DNA from: Pseudolabrys sp.
GTDB lineage: Bacteria > Pseudomonadota > Alphaproteobacteria > Rhizobiales > Xanthobacteraceae
DNA: 64,000 nt
NCBI GenBank assembly: GCA_017849615.1
Contig: JAFIGS010000028.1
Coordinates: 1-64,000, forward strand
Reading direction: 5' to 3'
The translations under genes and the position numbers were made by a program. Every line of letters begins with the position of its first letter. Position 1 is the stretch's first letter. Positions 35,548 through 44,004 of the stretch are shown here, piece after piece. The notes beneath the pieces are model-generated. The model ran no database searches and was not told the DNA's origin. It saw only the letters and a program-made list of their open reading frames with translations.

Positions 35548-36456
35548 CTACTGGAACATGTCGCGCGGCGTAAAGCCGATCTCGATATCTTTCCAGCTGT
35601 CATAATGCTCGGGCCTGAGCATCGTATACGGCTGGCATTGCAGAATGGCGCGTCGGCCGCTGTCGGCGAAGGCTGGCCCGTAAGGCGAGGCCGAGCCTTC
35701 GACCGGGTCGGGGCCGCGCTCGACGGTGCCGTCGCGCCGGAACTGAACGCGGAACACCACCTTGAGATTGTCGGCGCCCTCGGCGCCCACCGGGATCGTC
35801 CAGCACGACGTGACGCGGCGACGGAAGGCGTCGATTTCCGATTGGCTCAGCCGCGCCGAGTTGGCGTTGGCGGCGCCGAGACTGGCGTTCTTGTTGATCT
35901 CGGAGCCGGTCGCGGCCGAACGCGTCGGATCGCGCTTGTCGAGCAGCGCCGCGATCTTGTCGGCATCGAACTTCTGCGTCGGCTGCGGCTTGGGCGGCGG
36001 CGGCTTCTTCGGCGGCAACGGCTGCGGCTCGGTCTTGGCTTCCGGCTTCGGCTTGTCGTCTTTCAGCTTGTCGGCGATCTCGTCCGGCTTGGGCGGCTCG
36101 GGCTTGGCCTCGGGCTTTTTCTCGACCGGCTTCGGCTCCGGCTTGGGCGGCTCCGGAGTCGCCTCCTTGTTGACCGCGACTTCCCGCTTCTCGTTGATCG
36201 TCGGCTTGAGCTCCTCGACCGGCTTGGGCGGCGGCTCGGCGACCTTCTCGACCACCGGCTTGGGCTTTTCCTCGACCTTCTTGGTGTCTTTCACGCCCTT
36301 GGTGATTTCGGAGAAATCCTTGTCGCTGATGATATCGACCGGCAGCGATTCCGGCGGAATCGTTTCGAACGCCTTGCTGGAAAAGGAAAACGTCGCCCAT
36401 CCCAGCACGGCGACGTGCAGGGCGGTCGAGATTATCGATGCCGTCCGCATCTGCAT
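35548..36456 (-). CDS. tolA: Tol-Pal envelope protein TolA
   Basis: A 302-residue inner-membrane protein with a membrane helix at about 6-25 ('IISTALHVAVLGWATFSF'). A long Pro/Lys/Glu-rich helical domain follows ('EPPKPEPKPVEKKPEAKPEPPKPDE' type, about 70-195). The C-terminal domain carries 'AFRRRVTSCWTIP' and 'LQCQPYTMLRPEHYDSWKDIEIGF', the TonB-like fold that contacts TolB and Pal. It transmits the energy of TolQR to the outer membrane. It starts 6 bp after tolR. Confidence 0.93.
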   Translation of the reverse strand: MQMRTASIISTALHVAVLGWATFSFSSKAFETIPPESLPVDIISDKDFSEITKGVKDTKKVEEKPKPVVEKVAEPPPKPVEELKPTINEKREVAVNKEATPEPPKPEPKPVEKKPEAKPEPPKPDEIADKLKDDKPKPEAKTEPQPLPPKKPPPPKPQPTQKFDADKIAALLDKRDPTRSAATGSEINKNASLGAANANSARLSQSEIDAFRRRVTSCWTIPVGAEGADNLKVVFRVQFRRDGTVERGPDPVEGSASPYGPAFADSGRRAILQCQPYTMLRPEHYDSWKDIEIGFTPRDMFQ

Positions 36457-36462
36457 CGAAGG

Positions 36463-36909
36463 TTATTTGCCCTGCTCGAATTCGGTGACCAGCGCGACGC
36501 GGTGGAAGCCGGCGGCCGACAGACGGCCCATCACCGCCATCATCGATCCGTAGTTGGCATTCTTGTCGCCGCGCACATAGACGCGCGCTTCCTTGCCGCC
36601 GCGCGCCTGGGAGACGGCCTCGAGCTTCGGCACGAGATTGGCGAGCTCGATTTCCTCGTTCTGCAGAAACACCTTGCCCTGCGTATTGACCGACAGGGTG
36701 AGCGGCTCCTTGTCCTGATCGAGGCTCTTGGCCTGCGATTGCGGCAGGTCGATCGGCACGCCGACGGTCAGGAGCGGCGCCGACACCATGAAGATGATCA
36801 GCAGCACCAGCATCACGTCCACCATGGGCGTGACGTTGATCTCCGCCATTACTGCCCGGCGGCGGCGACGGCCCTTGCCGATCGTCGGCGTTCCCGCATT
36901 GGCTGCCAT
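36463..36909 (-). CDS. tolR: Tol-Pal motor protein TolR
   Basis: A 148-residue ExbD/TolR protein. One membrane helix ('MVDVMLVLLIIFMVSAPLLTVGVPI', residues about 28-52) contains the conserved proton-relay Asp, followed by a periplasmic dimer domain. It works with TolQ as the proton-driven motor. It is 6 bp before tolA and 63 bp after tolQ, so all are in one operon. Start 'MAANAGTPTIGKGRRRRR' is typical. Confidence 0.95.
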   Translation of the reverse strand: MAANAGTPTIGKGRRRRRAVMAEINVTPMVDVMLVLLIIFMVSAPLLTVGVPIDLPQSQAKSLDQDKEPLTLSVNTQGKVFLQNEEIELANLVPKLEAVSQARGGKEARVYVRGDKNANYGSMMAVMGRLSAAGFHRVALVTEFEQGK

Positions 36910-36972
36910 TCTGGTCGTCGTCCCTCAATTTCGGATCGCGGCCCCCGCCGCGGCGTCATTCCGGCAATCGGT

Positions 36973-37692
36973 TCAGCCGGCCCCGCGCTCGTCGATCTGG
37001 CGCGAGAGGATGGCGGAAAATTCGTCGGCGAAGCCTTCGAGCTGCTGCGCCTGTTTATTCACTTCAGCGGCGAACTTATTATAGAAAATCGTCGCCGGTA
37101 TGGCGGCAACGAGGCCGACCGCTGTCGCAAACAGCGCTTCCGCGATGCCCGGCGCCACCACGGCGAGCGAGGTATTCTTCGACGCGGCGATCGACTGGAA
37201 GCTCGTCATGATGCCCCAGACGGTGCCGAACAGACCGACGAAAGGCCCGGCTGAGCCGACGGTCGCGAGAACCAGCAGCCGCTTCTCGAGCCGCTCGATC
37301 TCCCGCGCGATCGTCACCTGCATCACCTTGTCGAGGCGCATCTGCAGTCCGGCGAAGGAACGCTGCTGCCCGGTAAAGCTGCGCTTCCACTCCTGCATCG
37401 CCGCGACGAACAAGGCGGCCATCGAGTTCGACGGCTTGGCGGCGTGCGTGCGGTAAAGATCTTCGAGCGACTGCCCGGACCAGAACTGGGATTCGAAGCC
37501 GCGCATGGCGCGCGCATTGCGCGTGTAAAGCACCCACTTGTCGATCGCGATCGCCCAGACCCAGACCGAGCAGGCCATCAGCCCGATCATGACAAACTTC
37601 ACGACCCAGTGGGCGTGCCAGAACAGGGTCCAGAGCGACAGGTCGGAAGCGACGATGGTCGGCAGCGACTGCGCCACATCGGCAGGATTCAT
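36973..37692 (-). CDS. tolQ: Tol-Pal motor protein TolQ
   Basis: A 239-residue MotA/ExbB-family membrane protein with three helices: 'VVKFVMIGLMACSVWVWAIAI' near 30-50, 'LVLATVGSAGPFVGLFGTVWGIM' near 135-157 and 'ALFATAVGLVAAIPATIFYN' near 185-205. It forms the proton channel with TolR. It opens the tolQRAB-pal operon on the minus strand. The preceding 325 bp holds no gene other than the DUF2852 terminator. Confidence 0.95.
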   Translation of the reverse strand: MNPADVAQSLPTIVASDLSLWTLFWHAHWVVKFVMIGLMACSVWVWAIAIDKWVLYTRNARAMRGFESQFWSGQSLEDLYRTHAAKPSNSMAALFVAAMQEWKRSFTGQQRSFAGLQMRLDKVMQVTIAREIERLEKRLLVLATVGSAGPFVGLFGTVWGIMTSFQSIAASKNTSLAVVAPGIAEALFATAVGLVAAIPATIFYNKFAAEVNKQAQQLEGFADEFSAILSRQIDERGAG

Positions 37693-38017
37693 AAGGCACG
37701 TCCTTTGCGTGGCGCCGGCCTTGCATCAAGGCGCGGCGCCGCGGGCTGTTCCAGTGTCATTGGCATGGGCTCGACAGGCGGAATCCCTGCCAAACTTGGC
37801 CAAATGAGGGCGCAGCGCCCGTTAAAACGCGGGCTTTTGCTGGCCTTTATGCCCCCACACAGCGCCCTTTATGGTAAAGGATTCGTTAGCGGCGGGTTCA
37901 CAAACGCCTGCGCGCACAGGCGAAAATCAGCGCAAAAAATAATCAGCCGCTGCAAAGAAAAGCCGCCCGCCTCGGGGAGAGGACGGACGGCTCAGCTCAC
38001 GCAGAAGTAATGGGGGA
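37693..38017. other. Gene-free stretch between DUF2852 gene and tolQ
   Basis: No gene is visible. It should contain the tolQ promoter, but I cannot place it securely. The hairpin at 37955-37993 is the terminator of the DUF2852 gene. Confidence 0.5.
37955..37993 (-). terminator. Terminator after the DUF2852 gene
   Basis: An 11-bp stem AGCCGTCCGTC / GGCGGGCGGCT (two G-U pairs) is followed on the minus strand by TTTTCTTT. It starts 25 bp after the DUF2852 stop. Confidence 0.7.
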
Positions 38018-38467
38018 CTAGTTCTGCGTCGGGCTTTCCGGCGCCGGGCGGTTGCGCCGCTCGGCCATGAAGGCGTCGAACTCGGTCTTGTCCTTGGCGA
38101 AGCGCAGCCGCTCCAGGAACGATTTGAATTCGTGCTGCTCTTCCTCCAGACGCCGCAGCGTGTCGTTGCGGTATTCGTCGAAGGCCGCGTTGCCGCTCGA
38201 AGGCGCGCCGCCCCACGGCGAACCGCCGCCGAAGCCGGAGCCCTGGCCGCCGCTCATCTTCGAGCGCATCCAGTCCATCTTCGACTGCAGACGATCCATC
38301 TTGTGTTGCCACCGATCATGGCCGCGATAACCGCATCCCATTCTTCCGCTCCCGATTGTGAAGGCCAAAGTTGCAAGACCGACCGGCCACCAGACCATGA
38401 AGCCCAGCACCGTGAGGGCAATCCAGGCGGGCTTGCCGTATTCGTCGAGCTTCGCGGTGATTGGCAT
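38018..38467 (-). CDS. DUF2852 domain-containing membrane protein
   Basis: A 149-residue protein. One hydrophobic segment lies near 12-37 ('PAWIALTVLGFMVWWPVGLATLAFTIG'), then a helical region ('KMDRLQSKMDWMRSKM'), a Gly/Ser-rich linker and a charged tail ('FDEYRNDTLRRLEEEQHEFKSFLERLRFA') that looks like a coiled coil. This is the DUF2852 pattern; the function is unknown. The ATG at 38467 has GGAGG 6 bp upstream. A TTGACA-type promoter with a palindrome over the start site (38491-38509) shows it is regulated. Confidence 0.85.
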   Translation of the reverse strand: MPITAKLDEYGKPAWIALTVLGFMVWWPVGLATLAFTIGSGRMGCGYRGHDRWQHKMDRLQSKMDWMRSKMSGGQGSGFGGGSPWGGAPSSGNAAFDEYRNDTLRRLEEEQHEFKSFLERLRFAKDKTEFDAFMAERRNRPAPESPTQN

Positions 38468-38490
38468 GGCGTCCTCCGGTCTCCGTGTGA

Positions 38491-38509
38491 ATGTAAATAA
38501 CATTTACAT
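38491..38509. promoter_or_regulatory. Operator of DUF2852 gene: ATGTAAA-N5-TTTACAT
   Basis: A perfect 19-bp inverted repeat. An identical pair of arms with the same 5-bp spacing occurs at 41067-41085 in front of the TetR gene, and no other copy was seen in the window. It lies immediately downstream of the -10 element (38509-38514), where a repressor would block transcription start. Confidence 0.7.
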
Positions 38510-38537
38510 GAGTAAGGGCGCGCGACCCTGATGTCAA
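38509..38537 (-). promoter_or_regulatory. Promoter of the DUF2852 gene
   Basis: On the minus strand, TTGACA (38532-38537), a 17-bp spacer, then TACTCA (38509-38514). The start site would fall near 38502, inside the palindrome. The good -35 and spacing support it; the -10 is weak. Confidence 0.5.
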
Positions 38538-38696
38538 CACCCTTCACATCGCTTTTTTGCAGGTGGGGATTGCCGGCCCGGTTGCGAGGGGGCGCGGCGC
38601 TTTGGCGCTGAATTTTCCGGGGACCTTCGAACCAATAAACCGACCTTGCGGGTACAATCGTAATGCACAACCTTTGATAGCAAAGCAGGGCATGCG

Positions 38697-38924
38697 GTGG
38701 CCGAAGATTCGCGTGATATCATCCGTGAACTCGAAGCGGACGGCCGGCTCTTCATCGGAGCTACCGGCAGTCATCATCTGACTGCGATGCGGGCCGACGG
38801 CGAAGCCACTCCGACCGCGCGCGATTTCGAAACGCTGAAACAAGATCTCGAATTTATCGAAGACAGCGCAGACGCCATCATAGCGATGGGGACGCCGAAG
38901 ACGTCCATGGCCGCGGCGGAGTAA
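38697..38924 (+). CDS. Small soluble protein of unknown function (75 aa)
   Basis: A GTG-started frame of 75 residues ('MAEDSRDIIRELEADGRLFIGATGSHH'). The pattern is acidic helix, short beta segment, and a second helix ('RDFETLKQDLEFIEDSADAI'). No domain is recognised. It is divergent from the DUF2852 gene and convergent with the HxlR gene, and the composition is that of a real gene. No strong ribosome binding site is seen, so the start could differ slightly. Confidence 0.5.
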   Translation: MAEDSRDIIRELEADGRLFIGATGSHHLTAMRADGEATPTARDFETLKQDLEFIEDSADAIIAMGTPKTSMAAAE

Positions 38925-38934
38925 GCCGCCAGTA

Positions 38935-39381
38935 TTAAAGCGGCTGAGTGGCTTGCATGTCCTCGACCGCCCCCGCCGCGTTCCGCTTCTCCCAATGCCT
39001 GGCGATCCGCGGCAGGCTCGTTTCGATCCAGTCGGCGAGCACCCTCACCTTCTCCGCCGCTTCGCGGCCGAGCGGCGTCAGTGAGTATTCGACGTGGGGC
39101 GGCACGACCTGATAGGCGACGCGGGCCACCATGCCGTCCTGTTCGAGGTGCTGCAGCGTCTGCGCCAGCATACGCTCGCTCACCCCGCCGACCGCCCGGC
39201 GCAACTCGCTGAAGCGGTGCATGCGCCGCTCGAGCACGATGAGAACCAGCACGCCCCAGCGGCTGGTCAGGTGCTTGAGCACGTCGCGAGAGGGACAAGC
39301 GGCGGCCAGAAGATCGCCGCGAGCGAGCTGTTCGGATAGCGGAACGCCACGGCTCTCCGGAGAAATCTCGATATTTGACAT
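38935..39381 (-). CDS. HxlR-family transcriptional regulator (QorR-like)
   Basis: A 148-residue winged-helix regulator. 'VLKHLTSRWGVLVLIVLERRMHRFSELRRAVGGVSERMLAQTLQ' is the DNA-binding segment and 'VPPHVEYSLTPLGREA' the wing. A Cys in the N-terminal part ('AAACPSRDVL') is at the position used for redox sensing in YodB/QorR relatives. It is divergent from the quinone oxidoreductase-like gene, matching the YtfH-YtfG (QorR-QorB) arrangement, so it likely represses that gene until electrophile or oxidant stress. Confidence 0.86.
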   Translation of the reverse strand: MSNIEISPESRGVPLSEQLARGDLLAAACPSRDVLKHLTSRWGVLVLIVLERRMHRFSELRRAVGGVSERMLAQTLQHLEQDGMVARVAYQVVPPHVEYSLTPLGREAAEKVRVLADWIETSLPRIARHWEKRNAAGAVEDMQATQPL

Positions 39382-39420
39382 GCGGTTAGGCTCCAGTGGT
39401 TCGTCGCAGGCTTTCTTTAA

Positions 39421-39445
39421 ACTTACAAAAATGTAGGTACTTACT
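39421..39445. promoter_or_regulatory. Candidate HxlR operator
   Basis: ACTTAC at 39421 and again at 39439 (18 bp apart), with an inner TACA-AAAA-TGTA palindrome at 39424-39435. The region lies between the HxlR gene and the oxidoreductase gene and is AT-rich against a GC-rich background. It fits the repeat pattern seen for YodB/QorR-type regulators. Confidence 0.4.
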
Positions 39446-39506
39446 AAAAATAATCAACCCCTTTATCTGGAGGCCTATCGGATTTCACCGTTCACAGGAG
39501 CCTCCC

Positions 39507-40355
39507 ATGACCATCGGAATCACCGGCGCCACCGGCCAGCTTGGCCGCCTCGTCGTCGCACAGCTCAAAGCCAAGGGTGCAGCCGGCGACATCGTCGCCC
39601 TCGTCCGCACCCCGGCGAAAGCCGCCGATCTCGGCATCGCCGCCCGCGAAGCCGATTACGCCAAACCGGCCACGCTCGACGCCGCGTTCAAGGGGCTCGG
39701 CACTCTGCTGCTCATTTCGTCAAGCGAAGTCGGGCAGCGCGAAGCCCAGCATAAGGCGATCATCGCCGCGGCGAAGAAGGCCGGCGTAAAGCGCATCGTC
39801 TATACCAGCATCCTGCACGCCGACGCGTCCGCGATCGACCTTGCCGCAGAACACCGCGCCACCGAAGCGGCGATCAAGGCGTCGGGCCTCGCCTACACGT
39901 TCCTGCGCAATGGCTGGTACACCGAGAACTACGCCGCCGGCATTCAGGGCGCGGTGGCGGGCGGCGCACTGTATGGCGCGGCCGGCGATGGCAAGATTTC
40001 CGCGACGCCGCGCGCCGACTACGCCGCCGCGGCGGCAGCGGTTCTCACAACGCCGGGACATGACGGCAAGGTTTATGAACTGGCCGCCGACAAGCCCTTC
40101 ACGCGGGCAGAATTGGCCGCCGAAATCTCGAGGCAGGCCGGCAAGACGATTCCCTACACGAACGTCAGCGTCGAGGATTACGCCAAGGGCCTCGCCAGCC
40201 ACGGTGTGCCGGAAGCATTCGCCAAGGTGATCGCCGGCTGGGAAGTGCCGATTTCGCAGGGCGCGCTGTTCGACGACAGCAAGACCCTGTCGAAACTGAC
40301 CGGCAAGCCGACCACGCCTCTGGCCGACGCGGTCAAAGCGATCCTTGCCGTTTGA
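39507..40355 (+). CDS. NAD(P)H-binding quinone reductase-like protein (QorB family)
   Basis: A 282-residue atypical short-chain dehydrogenase. 'GITGATGQLGRLVVAQL' is the nucleotide-binding loop and 'LISSSEVGQREAQHKAIIAAAKKAGVKRIVYTS' follows. The NmrA-like domain lacks the usual Tyr-x-x-x-Lys site, as in QorB (YtfG, 286 aa). It probably reduces quinones with NADPH. The ATG at 39507 follows a GGAG sequence; an ATG at 39396 is in frame but lies in the operator region. Divergent HxlR regulator gene supports stress-induced expression. Confidence 0.85.
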   Translation: MTIGITGATGQLGRLVVAQLKAKGAAGDIVALVRTPAKAADLGIAAREADYAKPATLDAAFKGLGTLLLISSSEVGQREAQHKAIIAAAKKAGVKRIVYTSILHADASAIDLAAEHRATEAAIKASGLAYTFLRNGWYTENYAAGIQGAVAGGALYGAAGDGKISATPRADYAAAAAAVLTTPGHDGKVYELAADKPFTRAELAAEISRQAGKTIPYTNVSVEDYAKGLASHGVPEAFAKVIAGWEVPISQGALFDDSKTLSKLTGKPTTPLADAVKAILAV

Positions 40356-40382
40356 GGCATCTGCCGCTCGGCCTGCCGGCTG

Positions 40383-41036
40383 CTACGCCGTCAGGCCGAG
40401 GCCGCGCAGATAAACCAGCACCTCGGCCTCGAGCAATTCGTCCGGCGCCATCGGCAAGGTGCGCCGGGCGCGATCGCCGCGCCCGAACAGCGACGCAATG
40501 CCGTGCGTCATCGCCCAGATGTGCAAGGCGACCATCAGGGCCGGCGGGCGTTCCTTGGCCGGCAGCGAAGCCACCAGGCGCTCGGCCGCCGTGCGCAGAA
40601 CCGCAAAGGCGCTTTCACCGGCAGCACGCAGTTGCGGATCGCTGTCCTGCGGCACACCGGCTTCGAACATGGCCGAGTAATAAGCCGGCTTGTCCTTGGC
40701 GAAATCCAGATAGGCATTGCCGAGCCGGTTGAACGCCGTCAGCGGATCGGGCTTGCCGTTGTCCCAGGCCTTGTCGAGCGCGGCCGCAAACAATTCGAAG
40801 CCGCGGCGCGCCACGTCAGCGATCAATTCCTCGCGGCTTTTGTAATGGCGATAGGGCGCCGCCGGCGACACGCCGGCCCAGCGCGCCGCATCGGCAAATG
40901 TGAAGCCGGCCGGGCCCTTCTCGGCGATCAGTTCGAGCGCGGCGCGGACCAGCGCCTCCTTGAGATTGCCGTGATGATAGCCGCGCGGGCCCTCGCCGCC
41001 GGACGCACTGTCGCGGTCGTTCTTGGTCCATCTCAT
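40383..41036 (-). CDS. TetR/AcrR-family regulator with WHG-type C-terminal domain
   Basis: A 217-residue regulator. The TetR helix-turn-helix is 'EALVRAALELIAEKGPAGFTFADAARWAGVSPAAPYRHYKSREELIADVA' (residues about 26-75). The C-terminal domain has 'WAMTHGIASLFGRG', the WHG-type pattern. An operator of the form ATGTAAA-N5-TTTACAT lies 30 bp upstream, and a copy controls the DUF2852 gene, so this protein likely represses both. I take the ATG at 41036; an ATG at 41060 is in frame but nearer the operator. Confidence 0.87.
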   Translation of the reverse strand: MRWTKNDRDSASGGEGPRGYHHGNLKEALVRAALELIAEKGPAGFTFADAARWAGVSPAAPYRHYKSREELIADVARRGFELFAAALDKAWDNGKPDPLTAFNRLGNAYLDFAKDKPAYYSAMFEAGVPQDSDPQLRAAGESAFAVLRTAAERLVASLPAKERPPALMVALHIWAMTHGIASLFGRGDRARRTLPMAPDELLEAEVLVYLRGLGLTA

Positions 41037-41066
41037 GGGACGGAGGCCTGGGCGGGGCAAAGCTTC

Positions 41067-41085
41067 ATGTAAAGAGCCTTTACAT
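41067..41085. promoter_or_regulatory. Operator of TetR gene: ATGTAAA-N5-TTTACAT
   Basis: A perfect inverted repeat inside a 21-bp palindrome (41066-41086, CATGTAAA / TTTACATG). It is the same as the operator at 38491-38509 in arms and spacer length. It lies 31 bp upstream of the TetR start, so the regulator is likely autoregulated. Confidence 0.7.
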
Positions 41086-41117
41086 GACTCAGGCGGGGAA
41101 AGCGAGCGGAACCCGCG

Positions 41118-41705
41118 TCAGTGCCCGCGCGGCGCGGCGGCCAGCGGCAGCGCGTCGAACAAGGTCGGCCCGCCGGGCTGCGCGCCTTCGATGGTGAGCA
41201 GCTTGAGTTTCGTCACGACGCCGCCGGGCGCGGAGAAGCCGCCGGTTTTCGCACCGTTGCGGTCGCTCGCCGCCAGGACGCGGTGGCACGGCATGACGAC
41301 CGGGCACGGGTTCTGCCCCATGGCCTGCCCGACCGCGCGGGCCAGAGTCTTGTCGCCGAGGCGCTCGGCGACTTCGCCATAGGTCAGCGTCTGGCCGGGC
41401 GGAATCTGCCGCACGATCCTGTAGACACGAGCGTTGAATTCCGGCGTCGCGCTGTCGTCGATAGCGACGTCAGAGAGGTTGCGCCTCTCGCCGTTGAGCA
41501 ATGCGACAATGCCGTGGATGGCCTGCTGCGCGAGGCCGTCGGGCGCTCGCTCGACCGCTTCGGAGAAACGCTTGCGCATCCGCGCGCGCGTCGCGTCTGT
41601 ATTGCCTTCCGGCAACTGCACGCCGATCAGCCCGCGCGCGCTCCACGCGACGGCGCAGACGCCGATGGCCGTGTCGAACAGGGTGAAGCTTTGTTCGTTC
41701 ATCAT
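41118..41705 (-). CDS. ogt: Methylated-DNA--protein-cysteine methyltransferase
   Basis: A 195-residue suicide repair protein that removes alkyl groups from O6-alkylguanine. The active-site motif is '[13 protein letters not shown]' (Cys in 'MPCHRV') followed by '[19 protein letters not shown]', and '[17 protein letters not shown]' is the helix-turn-helix. The N-terminal domain is the usual Ogt type, without an AraC-type domain. The start may be the first or second ATG (41705 or 41702). Confidence 0.93.
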
Positions 41706-41777
41706 ACCAATCTAGCACGCGGGCCCGTGCCGCGCCGCCCGATTCCTGACAGCCGCAGGCAGCCTCAGAAAGGCGCT

Positions 41778-42003
41778 TCAAAAAGGTTCTTGCGACAGCC
41801 CCGGCACGTCGGCCGGACGCGGGCCCGGCGCCGGCCACAGGAAACGGCGCTCGCTCGCCGCGATCTCGATCGTCGTTGATGCTGGCCTCGCGGCGCGCCA
41901 TCAACCCTTCGGCGTCGAACTCCCATTGCTCGTTGCCGTAGGAACGGTGCCACTGTCCCCTGGCGTCGTGCCATTCGTACTGGAAACGCACGGCGATGCG
42001 GTG
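41778..42003 (-). pseudogene. Remnant of a DUF1348 (SnoaL-like) gene
   Basis: On the minus strand, '[43 protein letters not shown]' matches the C-terminal half of DUF1348 proteins. The frame then shifts by one base and continues '[30 protein letters not shown]', which is the family's expected end. The N-terminal half is missing: upstream codons give unrelated sequence. So it is both truncated and frameshifted. It lies between ybgC and ogt. Confidence 0.75.
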
Positions 42004-42063
42004 CAAGCTCCGAAACGACAACCGGCGCTTCAGTGTCGTCCGATCCGGGCGCTTGTCAAACGA

Positions 42064-42540
42064 TCACGCCGGCGGCTGCGCGTCCTGATCCGCCTTCATG
42101 GCGATGCGCAGCGGCTTGGGAATCGGCTTGGCGCGGCCGCCCGAGACGAAGGCGACCTGCACATCGGCCTCGACCAGCAGCTCGTCGCCGCGCTTGACCT
42201 GCTGATGAAGAACGATCGACGCGCCTTTCACGTCCTTGGGCCGTGTATACAGATCGAGCAGGTCGTCCATCTTTGCCGGACGCTTGAAATCGATTTTCAT
42301 CTGGCGGACGACAAAGGCAAAGCCCGGCGCTTCCTTCTCGGTCTCCTCGAACAGCGCGCGGTGATCGGCGCCTAACAGACGCAGATAATTGGTGCGCCCG
42401 CGCTCCATGAAACGCAGATAGCTGGCGTGATAGACGACGCCGGAAAAATCGGTGTCCTCGTAATAGACGCGAATCTGCTGATGATGCAGGCCGTCGGTTA
42501 CGGTGCCGTCGATGGGGTGCATGGCGCTACTCATCCTCAT
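42064..42540 (-). CDS. ybgC: Tol-Pal-associated acyl-CoA thioesterase YbgC
   Basis: A 158-residue hot-dog-fold thioesterase. '[33 protein letters not shown]' is the YbgC signature with the catalytic Asp in 'YEDTDFSG'. Enzymes of this type act on acyl-CoAs and the gene is usually first in the tol-pal operon. Here it is cut off from tolQ by a 4-kb accessory block. Its start overlaps the ruvB stop by 14 bp, so it is coupled to ruvB translation. Confidence 0.92.
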
Positions 42541-43573
42541 CCCCCGCGAACAGGCCGAACTGCGACGGGTCGCGCTTGGGCTCGTTCATGCCGAGATGCT
42601 TGAACGCCGCACCGGTGAGCAATCGGCCGCGCGGCGTGCGCTGGATGAAACCTTTCTGAATGAGATAAGGCTCAATGATGTCCTCGATCGCGTCGCGCGG
42701 CTCCGACAAAGCCGCGGCGATGGTCTCGATGCCGACCGGGCCGCCGGCATAATTCTCGGCGATCATCCTTAGGTAGCGCCGGTCCATCGCGTCGAGACCC
42801 GAGCCGTCCACCTCCAGCGCCGACAGCGCCCTGTCGGCGATGGCGCGATCCACCGCCTTGTCGCCGTCCACGTGCGCGAAGTCGCGCACGCGGCGCAAGA
42901 GACGCCCGGCGATGCGCGGCGTGCCGCGCGAGCGCTTGGCGATCTCGTTGGCGCCTTCCGGCGTCATCGGCAGGCCGAGCACGCGCGCGCCGCGCGCCAC
43001 GATGAGTTCCAGCTCGGCTTCGGTATAGAAGTTGAGCCGGATCGGAATGCCGAAGCGGTCGCGCAGCGGATTGGTGAGGAGGCCGGCGCGGGTCGTCGCG
43101 CCCACGAGCGTGAACGGCGCGAGATCGATCTTCACCGAACGCGCCGCCGGCCCCTCGCCGATGATGAGGTCGAGCTGGAAATCCTCCATCGCCGGATAGA
43201 GGATTTCCTCGACATGCGGATTGAGACGATGGATTTCGTCGATGAACAGCACGTCGCGCGGCTCGAGATTGGTGAGCAATGCGGCAAGATCGCCGGCCTT
43301 CGCGATCACCGGGCCCGAGGTGGAACGAAAATTCACGCCCATCTCGCGCGCCACGATCTGCGCCAAGGTCGTCTTGCCGAGGCCGGGCGGGCCGACAAAC
43401 AGCACATGGTCGAGCGCCTCGCCGCGCGCCTTCGCTGCCTCGATGAACACTGAGAGATTGGCGCGCGCCTTCTCCTGTCCGACGAATTCGGCCAGCTTCT
43501 GCGGTCGCAGCGACGCATCGACATCGTCGTCGCGCTTGTCGCCGGACACGAGGCGTCTGGGCGGGGTGGTCAC
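42527..43573 (-). CDS. ruvB: Holliday junction helicase subunit RuvB
   Basis: A 348-residue AAA ATPase that drives branch migration with RuvA. Walker A '[16 protein letters not shown]' is near residue 65, Walker B '[10 protein letters not shown]' near 115, sensor '[10 protein letters not shown]' near 160. The winged helix with '[16 protein letters not shown]' is at the C-terminus. The start is GTG 43573, overlapping the cdd stop by 4 bp ('GTGA'). An upstream ATG would lie within cdd and is rejected. Confidence 0.96.
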
Positions 43574-44004
43574 ATCACCCCCCGGCGATATTTGTTCGGC
43601 AGCAGTTCGCCGATGGTGACGACGGTCGGTCCCTTGGCTCCATCCGGCACGATGACACGCGCCTTCGCGTCGTAGTCGTGAATCAGTTCGCGGCAAGCGC
43701 CGCACGGCGACACCACGGTGATGCCGCCCGCCTCGCCCGGTTTGGGGTGACGCACGGCGACGATGGTCTCGATGCCCTGGTCGCCCTTGTCGGTGAGCGC
43801 AGTGCCGATCGCCACCGCCTCGGCGCAGACCGCGCCGCGCCCGACATAGGCGTCGAGATTGACGCCGACGACGAGGCGGCCGTCGCGCGTGCGCAAGGCC
43901 GCGCCGACTTCCTGCCAGTCATTGCGGTAGCGCGACTTGATCGCCTTGGTGGCGGCGTCGATAAGTTCCTGGTCTTTGTCAGTCAGTTTCATGCGCTCAG
44001 TCAC
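43570..44004 (-). CDS. cdd: Cytidine deaminase-like protein
   Basis: A 144-residue zinc deaminase fold. '[14 protein letters not shown]' supplies the first Zn ligand and the catalytic Glu; '[11 protein letters not shown]' supplies the two other Cys ligands. It lies between ruvA and ruvB, with 4-bp overlaps at each end ('GTGA'), so it is translationally coupled to both. This insertion in the usual ruvA-ruvB pair is unusual. The substrate is inferred from the family (cytidine or a related base). Confidence 0.88.

Follow-up and report, generated by a model that had tools for sequence, protein, structure and literature searches.

A conserved TetR-type regulator with a putative double operator at essentially one other gene, of the DUF2852 family, in Alphaproteobacteria

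We analysed a 64,000-nucleotide stretch of a Pseudolabrys sp. genome (assembly GCA_017849615.1, contig JAFIGS010000028.1, positions 1 to 64,000; hereafter the window), in which a TetR-family gene and a gene of the DUF2852 family are preceded by the same palindrome. A sequence-only reading of the window had proposed that the two form a small regulon. In the reading that we consider best, with a probability of about 0.88, the TetR protein is an ancient repressor, usually autoregulated, with essentially one other target, the DUF2852 gene, where it is probably bound as a pair of dimers. One dimer on a single palindrome at the tetR start would provide autoregulation in most lineages, while two dimers would occupy a composite site over the predicted DUF2852 transcription start, joined in most of the genus by a further dimer 40 base pairs (bp) upstream, over the -35 box. 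The bound dimers would jointly shut the DUF2852 promoter until a ligand releases TetR and DUF2852 is induced. This reading draws on the sites themselves, their conservation, their co-occurrence with the regulator, their near-uniqueness in genomes and their persistence where DUF2852 lies away from tetR. The elements concerned are:

38018 to 38467, minus strand: DUF2852 gene, 149 amino acids (PF11014; start placed by conservation), the putative target
38485 to 38509, minus strand: putative 25-bp composite operator, ATGTAAATGTTATTTACATTCACAC, made of two 19-bp palindromes that overlap with a 6-bp offset (score 15/16; conserved)
38491 to 38509, minus strand: first site of the sequence-only reading, an exact palindrome and the core of the composite
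38509 to 38514, minus strand: predicted -10 box TACTCA, 17 bp after the -35 box (from the aligned footprint)
38531 to 38549, minus strand: putative distal DUF2852 operator, 19 bp with 2 mismatches, 40 bp from the proximal one and containing the predicted -35 box (window and own-genome scan)
38532 to 38537, minus strand: predicted -35 box TTGACA of the DUF2852 promoter (TTGAC conserved upstream of the composite)
40383 to 41036, minus strand: tetR, 217 amino acids, TetR_N and TetR_C_33 domains, putative repressor (Pfam, ortholog alignment, structure model)
41067 to 41085, minus strand: putative tetR operator, single 19-bp palindrome ATGTAAA-N5-TTTACAT (window and own-genome scan)

The palindrome ATGTAAA-N5-TTTACAT occurs exactly at 38491-38509 and 41067-41085, as first reported, and the remark that no third copy was noticed in the window has to be corrected, a copy with 2 mismatches (ATGTCAACACCCTTCACAT) being found at 38531-38549, exactly 40 bp from the first. 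Allowing up to 3 mismatches, there are 4 places in the window, compared with a mean of 0.20 and a largest value of 2 in 100 shuffles. The matches are not scattered over the organism's own genome (4,396,131 bases in 35 contigs): 3 places are found within 2 mismatches, all inside these 2.6 kilobases (kb). The composite was scored as the match over its four quarter-sites, with a maximum of 16. The window composite scores 15/16 and the runner-up place in the 64 kb scores 12, a value that was never exceeded in 100 shuffles of 8 kb. Within 1 mismatch, the composite is found at one place in the own genome.

To follow the sites across relatives, we looked for the palindrome, the TetR protein and DUF2852 in 60 genomes including the own one (36 of the window's genus and 24 from other families), and we compared 107 loci with non-identical tetR, window included. 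At the DUF2852 side, the pattern ATGT-NN-ATGT-N5-ACAT-NN-ACAY amounts to a pair of 19-bp palindromes shifted by 6 bp against each other. Downstream of tetR, the highest-scoring place reaches 14-16 in 98/107 loci, at DUF2852, and 13 in two loci. The seven loci below 13 are L080 (12), L082 (11) and L181 (11), together with L112, L114, L124 and L180, for which DUF2852 falls outside the stretch. Of the 98 composites, 97 match perfectly at the first three quarter-sites, and two loci (L191 and L192) carry a perfect 25-bp palindrome. In 83 of the 100 loci with a clear composite, it starts no more than 300 bp past the end of the tetR match. Within the genus, the spacer of the first site is nearly invariant, whereas the spacer of the second site varies; this fits the composite, as the first spacer holds half-sites of its second palindrome.

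At the tetR side, a 19-bp site within 2 mismatches lies near the gene start in 90/107 loci versus 0/809 control stretches of equal length, such that sites are kept at both genes. The composite score reaches only 9 to 13 there in 96 loci, and over the 107 loci the DUF2852-side site is thus double and the tetR-side site single. Shuffles, own-genome scan and control stretches together rule out chance occurrence. In the window, the second site does lie upstream of tetR, but at 30 bp from the ATG at 41036 rather than the 31 bp first given.

Passages in PMC4150764 distinguish TetR proteins that bind as a dimer from those that occupy longer operators as dimers of dimers, namely QacR, CgmR, SlmA, Ms6564 and CprB, and part of PMC10636190 describes DarR as having overlapping palindromes. 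What these proteins, as portrayed there, share with the present regulator is membership of the TetR family and a long operator; two overlapping palindromes, a trait of the QacR type, are present here in the 98 loci scoring at least 14. The 6-bp offset fits the dimer-of-dimers class as compared by class description rather than by QacR's own spacing. Unlike in the QacR type, the likely two-dimer site, recognised from sequence, is located at the target gene DUF2852, and the autoregulatory site is a single palindrome. The double site may make DUF2852 the more tightly held promoter.

The placement of the composite relative to the promoter bears on the direction of control. The conserved MPITAKLDE start sets the DUF2852 start codon most likely at 38467, which leaves 23 bp between the 19-bp site and the gene and, in agreement with the sequence-only reading, places the site over the predicted transcription start. 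Promoter and distal-site counts cover the 100 loci, out of 107, whose composite scores 13 or more. In 98 of these, TTGAC is found no more than 60 bp upstream of the composite, and in 48 the distance is that of the window. Most genus loci show TTGACA, 17 bp and then TATCAA, TATCCA, TACTCA or similar, and since this predicted -10 box abuts the composite, the latter covers the expected start point. At exactly 40 bp upstream, 24/30 genus loci and 0/70 others have a further 19-bp site (up to 3 mismatches), which contains the -35 box; in G054, a site with 2 mismatches precedes the proximal one by 30 bp and is not in that count. An activator of DUF2852, or a mixed regulator, could be envisaged because FasR, a named activator, is among both the weak NCBIfam matches of our TetR and its near-tied nearest structures. 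We regard this as improbable, as the overlap of the composite with the predicted start, and of the genus site with the -35 box, is the layout of a repressor, and a TTGACA-type -35 box suggests that no activator is needed.

The regulator and DUF2852 also occur together. In the genus, 30 of 36 genomes have both a TetR ortholog (E 3e-95 or better) and DUF2852, five have neither (G001, G005, G021, G022, G034), and in G015 DUF2852 and its operator lie at the start of a contig and no TetR was found (hypergeometric 2e-5; this and the later hypergeometric figure take genomes as independent, with no kinship correction). In the other families, DUF2852 is present in 18/24 genomes and lies within 2 kb of the TetR ortholog in seven (G036, G037, G046, G048, G053, G054, G055). 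We also scanned named records with a profile and kept the best 80 loci, which are labelled Pseudolabrys (among the closest), Bradyrhizobium, Afipia, Rhodopseudomonas, Bosea, Chelatococcus, Hyphomicrobium, Reyranella and Arenibaculum; DUF2852 is in the fetched stretch of 74/80, on the same strand and downstream of tetR. In a tree in which 37 DUF2852 rows were labelled linked by locus number (including L061 of G015, where no TetR was found, and with G035 left out), 35 of the 37 form one supported group (100/97) apart from 13 unlinked rows, the long-branched G048 and G054 rows falling outside. By this tree, the TetR-linked DUF2852s are a subfamily.

The composite is close to unique in each genome and follows the regulator. 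It is exact in 31/36 genus genomes, which are precisely those with DUF2852, and is missing from the five that lack the pair; one additional 1-mismatch place is seen in G006. In the other 24 genomes, it is exact in G036, G053 and G055 and has 1 mismatch in G046, all at DUF2852, while G038 and G043 have one 1-mismatch place each, away from any DUF2852 gene. Whole genomes from the named records were searched in 18 of 24 cases (G076, G078 and G080-G083 were left out), all 18 having been reached via loci with a TetR ortholog. Each of the 18, four Bradyrhizobium genomes of 7.8 to 9.5 megabases among them, contains exactly one composite, which lies upstream of DUF2852. Finally, a class sample of 143 genomes, own included, was searched for the exact composite and for a TetR ortholog (E 1e-50 or better), and the 13 exact composites all fall among the 19 genomes with the ortholog (hypergeometric 3e-14), consistent with the small regulon first proposed. 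In 12/13, the tetR match ends 60 to 104 bp before the composite, the 13th being the window.

A regulon with many targets is ruled out by the near-unique sites in the own, genus and named genomes. The same data speak to whether the palindromes are read by another regulator, with TetR a bystander. In the window, an HxlR-type regulator does sit between the two sites:

38935 to 39381, minus strand: HxlR-type regulator between tetR and DUF2852, judged outside the circuit (locus comparison)
39507 to 40355, plus strand: NmrA/QorB-like reductase, the HxlR partner, judged outside the circuit (Pfam, locus comparison)

However, this pair lies between tetR and DUF2852 in 9/107 loci, all of the genus and all 9 with both operators, against 98 loci with the composite, and HxlR is rejected as the reader of the sites. 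A global regulator would be expected to have many sites, whereas one composite per genome is found, and no genome of the class sample has the exact composite without this TetR. We thus give a reader other than TetR a very slim chance.

In the other families, single-palindrome matches stray: G042 has 4 versus 6 in its reversed control, and G058 three versus none. At one locus of G058 (L100, G058:C2, 656-697), two palindrome copies lie 23 bp apart, away from its DUF2852; this is perhaps the site of another regulator with a similar operator.

The link between TetR and these sites is further addressed by genomes in which DUF2852 is separated from tetR. In the Chelatococcus genome G075, about 20 kb of the same contig separate DUF2852, with a composite of 15/16, from tetR; the distance in G077 is 5.3 kb on the same contig (14/16), and the two genes of G078 are on different contigs (16/16), where the tetR stretch has no 19-bp site within 3 mismatches. 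The DUF2852 contig of G076 is cut before the promoter. Paracoccus ferrooxidans, with an annotated TetR beside DUF2852, and P. denitrificans have the pair with a 16/16 composite. DUF2852 of Azospirillum thermophilum has a 14/16 composite with no TetR within 2.4 kb (neighbourhood only, genome not searched), and one Sinorhizobium DUF2852 has neither a TetR within 2.4 kb nor the composite. The retention of the composite where DUF2852 lies apart from tetR supports the site as the link of DUF2852 to TetR. As an inverted repeat near the predicted start point, the composite might also act as a hairpin in the DUF2852 leader RNA instead of as an operator. This is the least likely of the alternatives, given that similar palindromes lie before tetR and over the -35 box, the latter outside the DUF2852 leader, and that the composite tracks TetR.

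Several observations weigh against a repressor that controls itself and DUF2852 throughout. Three of the seven linked genomes from other families (G037, G048, G054) have no composite within 1 mismatch, just a single palindrome with 0-2 mismatches, and 6/19 TetR genomes of the class sample lack the exact composite. The fourth quarter-site is the weakest, matching 4/4 in 36, 3/4 in 46 and 2/4 in 16 of the 98 composites. The genomes are related, so counts are not independent, and repression is assumed from the position of the sites. The proposal that one TetR represses both itself and DUF2852 gains from sites that are conserved, near-unique and track TetR, but its first half is not universal: 11/107 loci and two Paracoccus records have no tetR-side site within 3 mismatches.

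The regulator itself belongs to the TetR family. It matches PF00440 with 40.3 bits (cut-off 24) and has a C-terminal ligand/dimer domain and the all-helical TetR fold; a single-chain model (mean predicted local distance difference test score 82.9) likewise has the family fold. In the ortholog alignment, the stretch GVSPAAPYRH, which we take to be the recognition helix, is near-invariant. The nearest solved structures to the model (3on2, FasR, BkaR, DarR, FadR) are tied or nearly so, and the fold therefore points to no ligand; a solved TetR-fold structure without a given function is matched over most of the protein, and the Z scores of FasR, DarR, BkaR and FadR lie within about 1.5 of the Z score of that structure. 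Among the 13 NCBIfam TetR equivalogs listed, such as SACE_7040, RutR, MtrR and BetI, the best match reaches 32.7 bits versus a cut-off of 250. We found no paper on this regulator in the literature searched, where the half-site sequence search covered a small part of the matches.

A further feature is found at the tetR start:

41033 to 41068, minus strand: 11-codon mini open reading frame (mini-ORF) starting from the final ATG within the tetR operator and closing with a TGA that overlaps the tetR ATG (ATGA) (sequence, 107-locus comparison)

The last operator ATG is in frame with tetR itself in 66/107 loci and opens a mini-ORF of 5 to 23 codons in 25/107, window included. In 23 of these 25, the mini-ORF stop overlaps an in-frame tetR ATG, an arrangement that suggests a very short leader and translational coupling.

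As had been noted from the sequence, the HxlR/reductase pair and a 75-residue ORF (38697-40355 in all) lie between the two sites. HxlR and the reductase are divergent, and by eye the intergenic region near 39415-39450 has TTAC/GTA-type repeats of its own. The 75-residue ORF (GTG start, 38697-38924, plus strand) has no match in the other 106 loci and belongs to no Pfam or NCBIfam family, and it is therefore given no role. The gene order across 35548-43705 is ruvB, ybgC, ogt, tetR, HxlR/reductase, DUF2852, tolQ, tolR and tolA, the last named by position only. Among the 107 loci, whose stretches vary in length, tolQ is present in 46, ybgC in 37 and both in 28; no tol gene was matched in the stretches of the Reyranella and Hyphomicrobium loci.

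The DUF2852 assignment is clear, with a PF11014 match of 151.2 bits versus 22.5 (E 1.6e-44) over the whole profile, 1-116, as run on the longer ORF 38018-38503. A low-confidence model places a helix at 7-39 in a hydrophobic stretch and long helices at 50-72 and 94-138. The hydrophobic helix and the gene neighbourhood suggest that the protein is probably membrane-bound, and on these two grounds the earlier description as an envelope protein is plausible. In the Afipia birgiae locus (L152, 5872-6265), the DUF2852 match is split over two abutting frames, suggestive of a frameshift or sequencing error.

Parts of published reports mention two proteins that have the PF11014 domain in common with the window gene: BR2114 of Brucella suis, likened here by domain alone, which is less abundant in a mapB mutant, and bll7160 of Bradyrhizobium diazoefficiens, which is up in microoxia (protein log2 2.5, transcript 2.1-fold) and 4.9-fold up in soybean bacteroids and is listed as a target of neither NifA+RpoN nor FixK2. 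Those parts name no regulator of either. Since the only DUF2852 gene in each of the four Bradyrhizobium genomes is the one linked to TetR, bll7160 probably corresponds to it, and release by this TetR is a candidate explanation for its induction.

Local autoregulated repressors of the TetR/AcrR type have the gene beside its target and a site over the promoter. The circuit proposed here is a further case of these, with unusual breadth; the differences are that the target is a small protein and essentially the only one in the genome. An unnamed TetR thereby gains a defined candidate operator and an essentially single putative target, both of which recur in genomes of Hyphomicrobiales, Rhodobacterales (Paracoccus) and Rhodospirillales and in Reyranella-labelled ones. 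The arrangement hints at a way for one repressor to work from a single palindrome at its own gene and from a double one at the gene it controls, and it opens an approach to DUF2852, a functionally uncharacterised family whose genes are situated between ybgC and tolQ in many of the loci. More speculatively, and with low confidence, this ancient alphaproteobacterial circuit may sense an envelope- or low-oxygen-related metabolite, with the release of DUF2852 adjusting the Tol-Pal or inner-membrane machinery. If true, such a metabolite-sensing circuit would explain why bll7160 is induced in microoxia and soybean bacteroids independently of FixK2 and NifA.

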